Of a stretch of DNA of 64,000 nt, positions 12,405 through 15,825 are shown piece after piece. The stretch is from Pseudomonas sp. B6002 (GTDB lineage: Bacteria; Pseudomonadota; Gammaproteobacteria; Pseudomonadales; Pseudomonadaceae), in NCBI RefSeq assembly GCF_013385985.1, contig NZ_JACAOY010000016.1, forward strand, positions 154,267 through 218,266, read 5' to 3'. A program made the position numbers and the translations under genes. The notes under the pieces were generated by a model. That model ran no database searches. It was not told where the DNA came from and worked only from the letters and a program-made list of their open reading frames with translations. Positions within the stretch are counted from its first letter, which is position 1. The number at the start of each line of letters is the position of its first letter.

Positions 12405-12406
12405 TG

Positions 12407-12426
12407 ATATCATAATGCCATGATAT
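12407..12426. repeat. Inverted repeat at the left junction of the A/T-rich insert
   Basis: ATATCAT-N6-ATGATAT, immediately after the nrdB stop. It could be an operator or a junction scar. No protein partner is suggested. Confidence 0.4.
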
Positions 12427-12464
12427 AAAGAGCCGCCTATATGGCTGTTGGGAAGCTAATTATA

Positions 12465-12493
12465 GAAGCCTCGCATATGCGGGGCTTCTTTTT
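12465..12493 (+). terminator. Rho-independent terminator after nrdB
   Basis: Stem GAAGCC-T-CGC against GCG-G-GGCTTC with loop ATAT, followed by TTTTT at 12489-12493. It ends 26 bp before the next ATG, so it separates nrdB from the SIR2-like gene. Confidence 0.85.
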
Positions 12494-12519
12494 ACATGTG
12501 ATTTTTTTTCAGGGACGCG

Positions 12520-13539
12520 ATGAAAACTCTCACTTTAATATTAGGTAACGGCGTCACAATTGACCTAATGAGCCACCTTAAACTAGCTGAGCAAATAAAC
12601 GTAAGAAATTTATTCGCACGAGGCGATGAAATTGAGTGGCCGAGCCATAATGGCTTTTCAGGTTTTCTAACCTATAAAAACTGCCCAAACTTGGTCAGCT
12701 TAGGGATCACACCAAACACCCCACCAGAAACCGCAGCAATTATTTTCGAAAAAATCATAACTTGCGCAAACTTTTACTCTTATCGTTCAAAGAACCAGAG
12801 CGACGAAGAGAAAAACATTTACATAAGAGCATATCTAGAGCTGGTAGAGTACTTAAGAAGCCTTTTCATTTGGTATGATAAAATTTTCGTTGAAAGCGAC
12901 TGGAAAAAAAATATAAGTACGTGGAACTGGCTTAACTTCCTAAAATCAGCTCAAAAAAAATATGAAAAAATAAACATAATCACTCTAAACTACGACATTT
13001 ACCTCGAACGCATACTAAAAAATGAGGGAATTGAATTTCAAACGAGTCAAATAGATAAAGAGCAGGGAAAAAAAATAACCATATTCAAGCCGCACGGTTC
13101 AATTAGCTTTGTATCCTCGGTAGAGCCAACACAAACCGAAACAATGCCTGATTATTTTATTTCCTACAAATTCAAAGACCCCCTCACTCCATCCGACATA
13201 AAAACATCATATGAAGATCTAGAACAAAAAAGACTCATAAATACCATTATACCTCCTTATGGAGATTCGACTAGATACCAGCAAAGCTGGTCCAGACTCA
13301 TATTAGAAAAAGCAATTGCCAGCGCAAAGAACTCGGAAACCATAATAATATCTGGGATTTCTTATTGGCACGTTGATCGCCTTGAAGTTGATAAAATACT
13401 GCTTTCGGCGGAAGAGGATTGCAATATCACAAAAATAAACCCATCCTCCAACCCGATTTTTGACGCAGTATTACAAAGTAGATTTTCAAGATACCAACAA
13501 TATCGCAGCAGCTCCATTCTTCAGGAATTGATAAAATGA
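12520..13539 (+). CDS. SIR2-like (SIR2_2-type) protein, candidate NADase
   Basis: 339 residues; ATG at 12520 behind AGGGA. Features of the SIR2-like NAD-binding fold are an N-terminal glycine turn (LILGNG, residues 6-11), TLNYD at 155-159 (the family's TTNYD), KPHGS at 190-194 (the LHG position), IIPPYGD at 243-249, and IIISGISYWHVD around 276-286 (the GYS...D position). Many stand-alone proteins of this type are anti-phage effectors that deplete NAD+. No membrane or nucleic-acid domain is visible. The coding DNA is strikingly A/T-rich with AAA/ATA-rich codon use, unlike its neighbours, indicating recent transfer. The last 4 bp overlap the DUF262 gene (ATGA), so the two are translated together. 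NADase activity is inferred, not shown. Confidence 0.82.
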   Translation: MKTLTLILGNGVTIDLMSHLKLAEQINVRNLFARGDEIEWPSHNGFSGFLTYKNCPNLVSLGITPNTPPETAAIIFEKIITCANFYSYRSKNQSDEEKNIYIRAYLELVEYLRSLFIWYDKIFVESDWKKNISTWNWLNFLKSAQKKYEKINIITLNYDIYLERILKNEGIEFQTSQIDKEQGKKITIFKPHGSISFVSSVEPTQTETMPDYFISYKFKDPLTPSDIKTSYEDLEQKRLINTIIPPYGDSTRYQQSWSRLILEKAIASAKNSETIIISGISYWHVDRLEVDKILLSAEEDCNITKINPSSNPIFDAVLQSRFSRYQQYRSSSILQELIK

Positions 13540-14561
13540 GTCGATTAAAACGAGAAAGCGCGTCCATTAGCATTTCAGAATTTTATGAAAACCATTTACT
13601 TAATAAATATAACTACGATCCTGTCTACCAGAGAAAAAGTGTTTGGACGGATGAAAAACGTGCATTCCTAATAGATAGCATACTGAAAAACTTCCCAATT
13701 CCACCAATTTTTCTACACCAAAAAATTGATGAAGACACAGGAAAAACAAGCTTTGACATTGTCGATGGGAAACAGAGACTTACCGCCCTTACAATGTTCA
13801 TAAGAAATGAGCTTGCTGTAAGTAGCGAGCTAGATCAAAACGATGAAATTTCAGGTTTACTATTCAGCGAAATTGAAGGAAACCTTTCCGAATACAAAAA
13901 AGCTTTCTGGCGCTATAGAATTCCAATAGAGCTAATCGACTCGGACGATTCATCACTCATCGATGAGATTTTCGACCGACTGAATCGAAACGGTGAAAAA
14001 CTAAATGGGCAAGAACTCAGAAAAGCAAAGTATTACAACACTCCATTACTTAAGCTCGTAGAAAAAATTGCAAACACTAACCCATTTTGGATTAAACGCC
14101 TCGAAACGGCTACAGACCGAAACAGAATGGAAGATCATGAATTCATATCAGAATTAATTTTTGTTATCGCCGAGGACAAGCTATTCGGCTCAAATCAAGA
14201 GACGATTGATCAGAAATATGAAACCTATTCGGTCAAAACTTCAGAATGGGTTGACAGAATAGAACCTCAGTTTAACAAGGCGACTGCTGCTCTCGAGAGA
14301 CTAAACTTAAAATATGAAGATCTCCGTATTACAGGCGTAAGTCACTTATTCGGACTTTGGTCATTTGTTGTTGACCAAATGGGGAAAAACAACAGAGCTC
14401 TACCAAAACGAAAAATCAATAATTTCTATAAAATATTACGCAGCGATCCTACAAGTAACCAGTACGTTCTAGAGTATAAAAAGAGCATGAGCTCTGGAAC
14501 TAAAGAAGTAACTCAACGCAATAGAAGAAGACAAGCCCTGATTGACTATGTAGAAAACTAA
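13536..14561 (+). CDS. DUF262 (GmrS/ParB-like) protein without HNH domain
   Basis: 341 residues. The DUF262 signature is clear: YDPVYQRKSVWT near residues 27-38, then IPPIFLHQ, the catalytic/nucleotide-binding VDGKQRLTAL at 77-86, and IFDRLNRNGEKLNGQELRKA around 145-164. In GmrSD and SspE proteins this ParB-like domain binds or hydrolyses NTPs and regulates a C-terminal DUF1524 HNH nuclease. Here the chain ends at residue 341 with a basic tail (QRNRRRQALIDY) and no HNH motif. It overlaps the SIR2-like gene by 4 bp and shares its A/T-rich composition. A sensor or regulator role for the SIR2 partner, probably for modified or foreign DNA, is an inference. Confidence 0.82.
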   Translation: MSRLKRESASISISEFYENHLLNKYNYDPVYQRKSVWTDEKRAFLIDSILKNFPIPPIFLHQKIDEDTGKTSFDIVDGKQRLTALTMFIRNELAVSSELDQNDEISGLLFSEIEGNLSEYKKAFWRYRIPIELIDSDDSSLIDEIFDRLNRNGEKLNGQELRKAKYYNTPLLKLVEKIANTNPFWIKRLETATDRNRMEDHEFISELIFVIAEDKLFGSNQETIDQKYETYSVKTSEWVDRIEPQFNKATAALERLNLKYEDLRITGVSHLFGLWSFVVDQMGKNNRALPKRKINNFYKILRSDPTSNQYVLEYKKSMSSGTKEVTQRNRRRQALIDYVEN

Positions 14562-15111
14562 AAGCACAAAATTTATTTAGCACCTTTTTGGCAAACACCT
14601 AAAACCTAGAAAAGTAAGCCCTAAATCCAACAGGGCTTACTTATAAAACACGGCTCTCACCAACCTTAACGTTCATACCCTCATAATAATACACCTCTAC
14701 ATTTCAAGCTAGAGCAGCAAACTTCCAAAAAATACAAGACACATACCTTACCGCCTATTGCCAAACTTAGAAAAGCTCATTAAACAACACCAAATTTACG
14801 CACAACCCCATTCTAATATTACAAACCAAATCCTTATAAAAATACACCCAACACTTAGCCAATACACCCCATTAAATCTTATTTACTAAAAACAAAGTCG
14901 ACGGCAGACATTGGAGCAAGGCGTACCTATCGTTAACATCTGACCTCTCGAAGACACTCAATGAAAATATTTAGGAGACAGCATATTTAGCCTTATTCAA
15001 AAACAACTCCACTTTCTAGGCTTTCACGATAACTGAGTCCGACCTGCAAGCAAGAAATTTCGTAGACTCCATAGCGGCCAATTGTTCAGAGTCTTTACGC
15101 TCAGCGATTAA
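14562..15111. other. A/T-rich, G-poor non-coding stretch
   Basis: 550 bp with no supported reading frame on either strand. It begins with a hairpin (14612-14642), then becomes strongly strand-asymmetric: from about 14740 to 14900 the plus strand is nearly all A, C and T. It could be decayed coding DNA or encode an RNA, but nothing recognisable was seen. Confidence 0.5.
14612..14642. terminator. Hairpin downstream of the SIR2-DUF262 pair
   Basis: Perfect 11-bp stem (AAGTAAGCCCT against AGGGCTTACTT) with a 9-nt loop, 50 bp past the DUF262 stop. No good T-run follows on either strand, so it may terminate weakly or protect the 3' end. Confidence 0.55.
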
Positions 15112-15825
15112 ATGGACACTATTAAAAGCAAAACGGGTCGAAATTACGCCAAACTGGCAGTTGCGGTAGAGGTGTATTTGAAGACGCTGACTAGGTGAAA
15201 GAGTGGCCAGACTTTCAACAAAGCACTTGATAACCATTTTTTGCTTGAAGACCCGATGGCAAGCGGTGTGAAGGGTACTATTGAGTTTCGCATGCAAAAT
15301 ATCTCCACCGTGCTCGACCGGATGGGGTTGGAGCGCATCGTAGGCTACAAGCCTGCGAAGAACGTGGGCACAGGCGTTGAGCTGCGCATCCGACAGGTGC
15401 TCAATGCCCAGGGTGTTTTTGAATCGGATGACACCGCCCAAACCGCCGATGAGCAAACGCTCATCCGCCGCGCGTCCAAGCTACAGAAGCAAACCTTCCA
15501 TAAAGTACCTGACGGCATCGTGCAGCCGCAGAAGGTCGCCACCGTGAGCACCTCCTTCGTTCGCGACCCGAAGGTGCGCGCCTGGGTGCTAAAAGAAGCC
15601 AAGGGCATTTGCGAAGGCTGCAACACCAACGCGCCGTTTGAGGTCGATGGCCAGCCATTTCTTGAAGTACATCACGTCAAGCACCTCGCCCAGAAGGGTT
15701 CGGATCGCATCACCAATGCTGTAGCCTTGTGCCCCAATTGCCATCAGCGTTGTCACCGGTCGAGCGATCGGGAGGCTTTCACCGCCGCGCTTTACTCTAA
15801 AATCGAAAGATTGATACGCGAGTAA
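15112..15825 (+). pseudogene. HNH (McrA-like) endonuclease gene with in-frame TGA
   Basis: From the ATG at 15112 the frame reads 28 residues (ending VAVEVYLKTLTR), meets TGA at 15196-15198, and continues in the same frame to 15825. The sequence right after the TGA (KSGQTFNKALDNHF, then GTIEFRMQNISTVL and IVGYKP) matches the conserved N-terminal part of this HNH family, so the break is inside the gene and not before it. The C-terminus holds the nuclease motif: CEGC, VHHV, TNAVALCPNCHQRCH, with two zinc CxxC pairs. A shorter product could start at TTG 15241 or ATG 15256 and would keep the HNH domain. Base composition is closer to the chromosome than to the adjacent SIR2-DUF262 pair. Confidence 0.7.

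Follow-up and report, generated by a model that had tools for sequence, protein, structure and literature searches.

A 64,000-nucleotide stretch of the Pseudomonas sp. B6002 genome (the whole stretch is called the window here) carries a SIR2-like gene coupled to a downstream DUF262 gene. SIR2-like and DUF262 genes of this kind form a conserved unit, with fixed gene order, close coupling, and co-variation. The pair is probably a horizontally acquired, two-gene abortive-infection system in which the DUF262 protein would sense invading DNA and a Nezha-like sirtuin would hydrolyse NAD+. It seems to join a known effector to a known sensor fold, a combination without a name in PADLOC 2.0.0 or the open-access literature searched.

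The SIR2-like gene (12520..13539, + strand, from the list of open reading frames [ORFs]) codes for a predicted NADase effector of 339 amino acids (aa). The DUF262 gene (13536..14561, + strand) codes for a predicted NTP-binding sensor or regulator of 341 aa. The two ORFs share 4 bp, and the overlap given in the original prediction is borne out by their coordinates. Pfam placed the first protein in SIR2_2 (E 9.9e-6, 26.1 bits, cut-off 24.5) and the second in GmrSD_N, the DUF262 family (E 6.1e-28), which supplied both family assignments on which that prediction depended. No nuclease domain was found in either protein with Pfam at E values up to 1, in agreement with the claim that the DUF262 protein has no fused DUF1524 HNH nuclease, and NCBIfam gave no match above cut-off. 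Conserved motifs in the SIR2-like protein, described earlier as GNG, TLNYD, KPHGS, and GIS..D and seen again in the sequence, are G9-N10-G11, N157-Y158-D159, K190-P-H192-G-S, PP..G..R (245–252), and G279.S-Y-W.V-D286-R. Those of the DUF262 protein are Y31-Q-R33, D77-G-K-Q-R81, and F146-D-R-L-N150-R; its aspartate had been numbered D78 and is D77. The catalytic N157 and H192 are invariant in 26/26 aligned members, and the NTP-pocket motifs of the DUF262 protein in 27/27. The alignment also has a strongly kept C-terminal GxSYWxVDR.E.D block in the SIR2-like proteins.

Both folds were observed, as predicted models, with their active-site motifs. Structural matches of the SIR2-like protein are to the sirtuin fold; the nine best rows are all SIR2-HerA entries, the best being the Nezha SIR2, and in an alignment with the solved PsSIR2, N157 and H192 fall on its NYD and HG motifs. 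The AF2 model of the DUF262 protein has a pLDDT of 90.3 and matches BrxU, SspE, and ParB. A DUF262 profile compared to the sequences of solved structures returned one row, at chance level.

To place the pair in other organisms, a three-row SIR2 alignment was run against approximately 85,000 species genomes. The scan identified 28 SIR2 loci, a lower bound that may favour typical members because loci were found by short conserved peptides, and DUF262 lies directly downstream in 27 of them. The downstream DUF262 of L016 is interrupted by the contig end, and in the sole exception (L034) the start of SIR2 is followed by transposase-like sequence. The loci include ones from Proteobacteria, Firmicutes, Flavobacterium, metagenome-assembled genomes of Nitrospirae and Deferribacterales, and the archaeon Methanimicrococcus. 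The pair also occurs on a Sulfurovum plasmid, where the SIR2 frame is broken, as it is in L030; both frames are broken in L033. A viral-contig collection yielded five loci, four of which are pairs. The fifth (L039:7788-8894) is a distant solo SIR2 with a similar motif style and 25% identity, without DUF262. Protein searches found matches in 3/299 genomes of the same genus and 3/398 of the phylum, each count including the own genome and one weak match set aside (L003 and L006, the former matching in a frame whose translation looks like a different protein). A scan of the genome collection with a single protein found no relative. Among 5,426 complete Escherichia coli genomes, 27 match a Klebsiella-type pair, 26 of them over at least 80% of the pair (~0.5%), with 88% DNA identity to the Klebsiella pair L025; RefSeq annotates these genes as SIR2 family or hypothetical protein and as DUF262 domain-containing protein. 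Conservation in other genomes, another point on which the original prediction hung, is thus evident in the species genomes, the viral collection, and E. coli.

Gene coupling was measured in 33 pairs, with genes called by a longest-ORF rule. At the extremes, the two genes overlap by 61 bp or stand 2 bp apart, and eight junctions are overlaps of exactly 4 bp, in a count that includes duplicate loci and in which the widest overlaps depend on the chosen start codon. Pairwise identities of the SIR2 and DUF262 proteins are correlated across 25 loci (r = 0.84); the highest value in 9,999 permutations was 0.38. Seen from the DUF262 side, 38/38 rows scoring at least 440 bits adjoin SIR2, and below this score only broken or contig-cut copies do; like the junction set, these rows keep duplicates (L023/L037 and L019/L036, for example, score alike). 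Most of the 38 rows were fetched via SIR2, so searches started from DUF262 are the fair test. These covered 30 loci from the 398 phylum genomes, plus the top 80 of 177 relatives in the viral collection. All six loci of at least 440 bits have SIR2 adjacent (one is the window itself), compared to 0/104 lower-scoring loci, six of which have less than 500 bp of upstream sequence.

The pair has a GC content of 37.2%, compared to 61.3% (sd 2.0, minimum 55.8%) in 1,143 overlapping windows of 2,042 bp from the rest of the 64 kb, so the strong A/T-richness noted at the outset stands. It lies in an AT-rich insert (approximately 12406..15053, no strand, 37.5% GC) that is absent from related genomes, in the interval between nrdB (ribonucleotide reductase small chain) and a HAD-family gene. 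The DNA match to relatives ends at 12405 and restarts at 15054 (L074), 15649-15654 (L071, L072, and L075), or 15878 (L073). The two flanking genes are linked in five of eight related genomes, none of which carries the pair at this site; in the other three, the HAD gene is present and nrdB is not in the fetched stretch. The interval holds only an HNH fragment in L071, L072, and L075, a 238-aa HNH gene in L074, and, in L073:932-4115, a C5 methylase, a Vsr nuclease, and a type II restriction endonuclease (REase) in approximately 5 kb. These contents identify it as a variable spot used by restriction genes, with the pair as one occupant, and the site is a small restriction hotspot of the genus. 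In both inspected E. coli genomes (2/2), the pair is in a tRNA-Arg island beside an integrase. Low GC, absence from the site in 5/5 linked relatives, and the E. coli islands indicate that the pair is mobile. Clustering with defence genes and mobile islands was likewise found: restriction genes occur at the site in relatives and beside the pair elsewhere, and the E. coli islands add two of two.

A phage origin was considered and rejected. The pair had no match in 50,697 phage records, and when the interval was compared with phage DNA, the match was 72 bases long and lay inside nrdB; the viral-contig collection gave the five loci described above, four of them pairs.

We compared the pair to named defence systems. 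It shares with Nezha (SIR2-HerA) a SIR2 fold with catalytic N and H, but the Nezha partner is a HerA helicase and SIR2 identity is ~13–15%. Its DUF262 protein lacks DUF1524, as do Menshen NsnA and the A component of PD-T4-2, and the PADLOC NsnA and PD-T4-2_A models match DUF262 in 27/27 members (window DUF262 against NsnA, E 3.6e-39, residues 7–337). Menshen companions, including an OLD-type nuclease, are absent from the surroundings of DUF262 in the window, which consist of SIR2, nrdB, and an HNH gene; a tally of companions at the 27 other loci lists 25 of 90 families. PD-T4-2 has a HEPN-domain partner, whereas the pair's partner matches SIR2_2 only in Pfam, with no HEPN. Membership of Menshen, PD-T4-2, or Nezha was therefore rejected, because the partner genes differ. 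KomBC is a SIR2 defence system with another sensor or partner. Thoeris ThsA, DSR2, and SPARSA are SIR2 defence systems with other triggers or partners, namely a TIR signal, a phage tail-tube protein, and Argonaute, as described in passages of PMC10952713. The type IV restriction enzymes GmrSD, BrxU, and SspE and the GrwAB system share the ParB/Srx fold and the QR, DG(K/Q)QR, and FxxxN motifs with the pair, motifs that sections of PMC12137116 give for GmrSD-type proteins. These systems carry a DUF1524 nuclease, C-terminal or separate and of His-Me type in GmrSD-type enzymes, but the gene coupled to DUF262 here is a separate SIR2 in 27/28 loci. The predicted ptuXYZ operon (excerpted from PMC11980606) is also similar in placing a DUF262 without DUF1524 beside a toxin-like effector; it has three genes (DUF262, ATPase, and BECR RNase) and an RNase effector, compared to two genes and SIR2 in the pair.

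One residue differs from the described enzymes. K79 of the window DUF262 belongs to a DGKQR motif that is invariant in pair members, compared to the DGQQR described for GmrSD-type enzymes, and judged from sequence, DGKQR is a possible marker of nuclease-less DUF262 proteins.

PADLOC 2.0.0 has no model naming the pair and gave only weak matches of the SIR2-like protein to its SIR2 and Aga_SIR2 models. No SIR2 + DUF262 system is described in the open PubMed Central full texts searched, a scope outside which lie most subscription papers and bioRxiv. Within these texts, DUF262 and SIR2 occur together in one review, in separate systems in the portions available. The statement that no named system has this pairing was upheld in these two resources. 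Known SIR2 partners are HerA, Argonaute, TIR-signal, and STAND-type, and a DUF262 sensor would add a new trigger of NAD+ depletion. The pair would also make the role of nuclease-less DUF262 proteins (Menshen, Dazbog, PD-T4-2, and ptuXYZ) testable, as a minimal two-gene case that is present in some E. coli genomes and has an easily measured effector output (NAD+).

We infer a defence activity, a trigger, and an NADase activity for the pair. The DUF262 protein would act as an NTP-binding regulator with a ParB/Srx fold, resembling GmrSD, BrxU, and SspE but lacking the nuclease arm. It may detect invading DNA, most plausibly with an abnormal or modified cytosine state; recognition of modified cytosine by GmrSD-type proteins is reported in part of PMC10952713. 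It would then release or activate its translationally coupled SIR2 partner, and this Nezha-like sirtuin would hydrolyse NAD+, halting the infected cell.

Neighbouring genes were compared to identify functional links. Taking up to two ORFs upstream and two downstream at each of 27 loci gave 101 neighbours, of which nine match C5 DNA methylase, the commonest Pfam family. Within flanks of approximately 6 kb (L010, L014, L016, L017, and L021 have less than this on one side or both), a C5-cytosine methylase is present at 11/27 loci (L008, L013, L015, L016, L021, L022, L023, L024 with two, L029 with a fragment at the locus edge, L030, and L033). C5 genes, counted with a profile seeded from one methylase, number ~40 in these 27 genomes, and 12 of the 40 are beside the pair, compared to ~0.16 expected at random under even spacing and 13.5 kb per locus. 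Control families did not follow this pattern: 1 of ~30 PF01555 genes is near the pair (L014; Fisher P value 0.005 compared to C5), as are 0/76 PF02384 rows (P value 8e-7), the ~40 and ~30 totals having been merged by hand. A check for N6/N4 methylases among the 955 ORFs of the 27 loci, using nine seed genes, identified no PF02384-like gene and one PF01555-like gene (L014); one PF02384 gene may sit 0.2 kb beyond the range examined at L009. A C5 methylase is beside SIR2-type DUF262 genes in 10/30 loci compared to 4/72 for other DUF262 genes (P value 6e-4), many of the latter with flanks of only 1.5 kb. All of these statistics overstate the association, since defence genes cluster and some loci (L021, L022, and L024) are related.

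Adjacent REases are of the Bse634I, NgoFVII, NgoMIV, EcoO109I, and BsaWI types, together with an HNH gene and a Mrr/ResIII protein. Gene order in L021 is C5 methylase, NgoMIV, and Vsr, then SIR2 after 11 bp; SIR2 starts 31 bp after Vsr in L022, 26 bp after a C5 methylase in L024, and 15 bp after an HNH gene in L030. At some loci, the pair is thus apparently in an operon with type II restriction genes, as far as gene spacing can suggest. One locus (L015:7367-9667) has, a short way beyond the pair, a 766-aa ORF with two tandem C5 methylase matches, followed by an NgoFVII-type REase. For GmrSD genes in general, passages of PMC4619093 report type I (N6) systems as the neighbours instead. A coupling of suicide genes to restriction was proposed in 2012; sections of PMC3506569 name Sir2 and ParB in connection with type I and III systems. 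Neither the SIR2 + DUF262 pair nor a C5 type II bias was found in the available parts of that article or of the other open-access texts searched. The C5-methylase link, like the exchangeable DUF262 partners described below, goes beyond the original prediction.

The C5 counts, the negative N6/N4 controls, the adjacent REases, and the 11–31 bp spacings favour a different role, that of a restriction-modification (R-M) guard. The DUF262 protein would read methylation or the state of the R-M complex, and SIR2 would kill if R-M is evaded or inhibited or if unmethylated DNA persists, with NAD+ loss as the last arm. Two DUF262-only genes directly downstream of an Eco57I-type methylase (L118 and L119, both in the RelA sister group introduced below) also support this role. 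However, 16/27 loci and the window have no nearby C5 methylase, and the R-M systems beside the pair belong to many unrelated types, a pattern that shared selection or clustering would explain as well as coupling does; the overstated statistics weaken the case further. We consider a guard of this kind rather unlikely as the explanation of the pair.

Several observations weigh against a modification-sensing abortive-infection system as well. The modified-DNA trigger is carried over by analogy from GmrSD/BrxU, and where a pair adjoins an active 5mC methylase, that methylation by itself cannot be the trigger. A 5mC sensor would attack a host with an adjacent C5 methylase, so the sensed state must be other than plain 5mC. 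The window pair itself has no adjacent C5 methylase, with one clear and one weak match elsewhere in the genome. From sequence alone, the match to SIR2 is weak (26 bits). The structural matches to Nezha come with rmsd > 4 Å and 13–15% identity, and Foldseek TM-scores normalised to the query are low, reaching no more than 0.45 for SIR2 and 0.31 for DUF262. Two readings would suit the C5 link: the pair may complement C5 restriction by dealing with phages that get past it, or it may guard that restriction.

Effector-first gene order and close coupling would also suit a toxin-antitoxin pair, with SIR2 as a constitutive NADase toxin restrained by DUF262 and kept mainly for stability of a mobile element, defence being incidental. 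The SIR2 frame is broken or truncated in L004, L030, L033, and L034, and DUF262 is full length in L004 and L030, which also favours this reading. Typical antitoxins are, however, much simpler than a 341-aa DUF262 protein with invariant NTP-pocket motifs, and restriction genes occupy the same site in relatives. Antitoxin and sensor roles of DUF262 are compatible with each other; maintenance as the main function is improbable. An alternative in which SIR2 makes a signal or modifies DNA or protein without NAD+ depletion, and DUF262 is an enzyme or a receptor on the target, would draw on the conserved C-terminal block and on the several activities known for sirtuin folds, but the closest folds are Nezha SIR2 proteins and the N/H pair is kept, making it very improbable.

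DUF262-only genes related to those of the pair have other partners. A RelA/SpoT-type gene is close downstream in L081, L119, and L120, a module for which no description was met in the open-access literature searched. An FRG gene is close upstream in L086, L088, L121, and L122, and a protein kinase gene close downstream in L080 and L083. In a survey of 102 DUF262 loci with small local profiles, from which ten loci and DUF262 ORFs shorter than 300 aa were dropped, 30 had SIR2, nine FRG, three RelA, three kinase, and 57 none of these. The FRG-type neighbours are in L086, L088, L090, L091, L121, L122, L124, L125, and L128, of which L121 and L125 also have a C5 methylase; the protein-kinase-type genes adjoin DUF262 in L080, L083, and L087.

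Each partner type forms its own clade in a tree of 79 DUF262 sequences, which leaves out twelve loci and DUF262 genes below 85 bits or 300 aa. The SIR2 group is sister to the RelA group, with split supports of 0.991 and 1.0 and a joint value of 0.936; the SIR2-clade support of 0.991 is that of the original tree and is displayed as 0.375 after re-rooting. L118 was placed in the RelA group, its downstream partner being beyond the available DNA. Clustering by partner type suggests that DUF262 is the constant part and the effector is exchangeable. DUF262 thus looks like a sensor family with exchangeable effectors, on comparison of sequences in which a partner was identified for a minority of loci. 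Together with the C5-methylase bias, partner exchange suggests a wider principle linking the sensing of DNA modification to cell suicide. More tentatively, these genes may represent an undescribed class of DNA-methylation guards, in which DUF262-only sensors of modification state, often beside a methylase, would fire exchangeable effectors (SIR2, RelA/SpoT, FRG, or protein kinase); we hold this to be possible, with the odds against it. If true, restriction would end in suicide via NAD+ or nucleotide metabolism, not in DNA cutting.

The immediate surroundings of the pair differ in part from the original prediction, in which it sat alone between housekeeping genes with its own terminator-like hairpin. 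The upstream neighbour is indeed nrdB, but downstream an AT-rich spacer is followed by an HNH-nuclease gene (15241-15825), and the HAD-family gene comes only after it. A hairpin with an 11-bp perfect stem does lie 3' of the pair (14612..14642, + strand, by sequence reading), but it has no U-tract and is absent from the terminator-scan list. The clearest + strand terminator listed, an intrinsic-terminator-like hairpin, is upstream, between nrdB and the pair (12464..12489). The HNH gene was rejected as the missing nuclease of DUF262, since it is found at this site without the pair in relatives, and among ten neighbour genes scanned at other pairs, only that of L030 is HNH. It is a separate resident of the same variable spot. 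In the window (15054-15825), it is of the PADLOC mREase_IV type and codes for 194 aa from a TTG start, and by sequence comparison with the gene at the same site in L074 it looks 5'-truncated.
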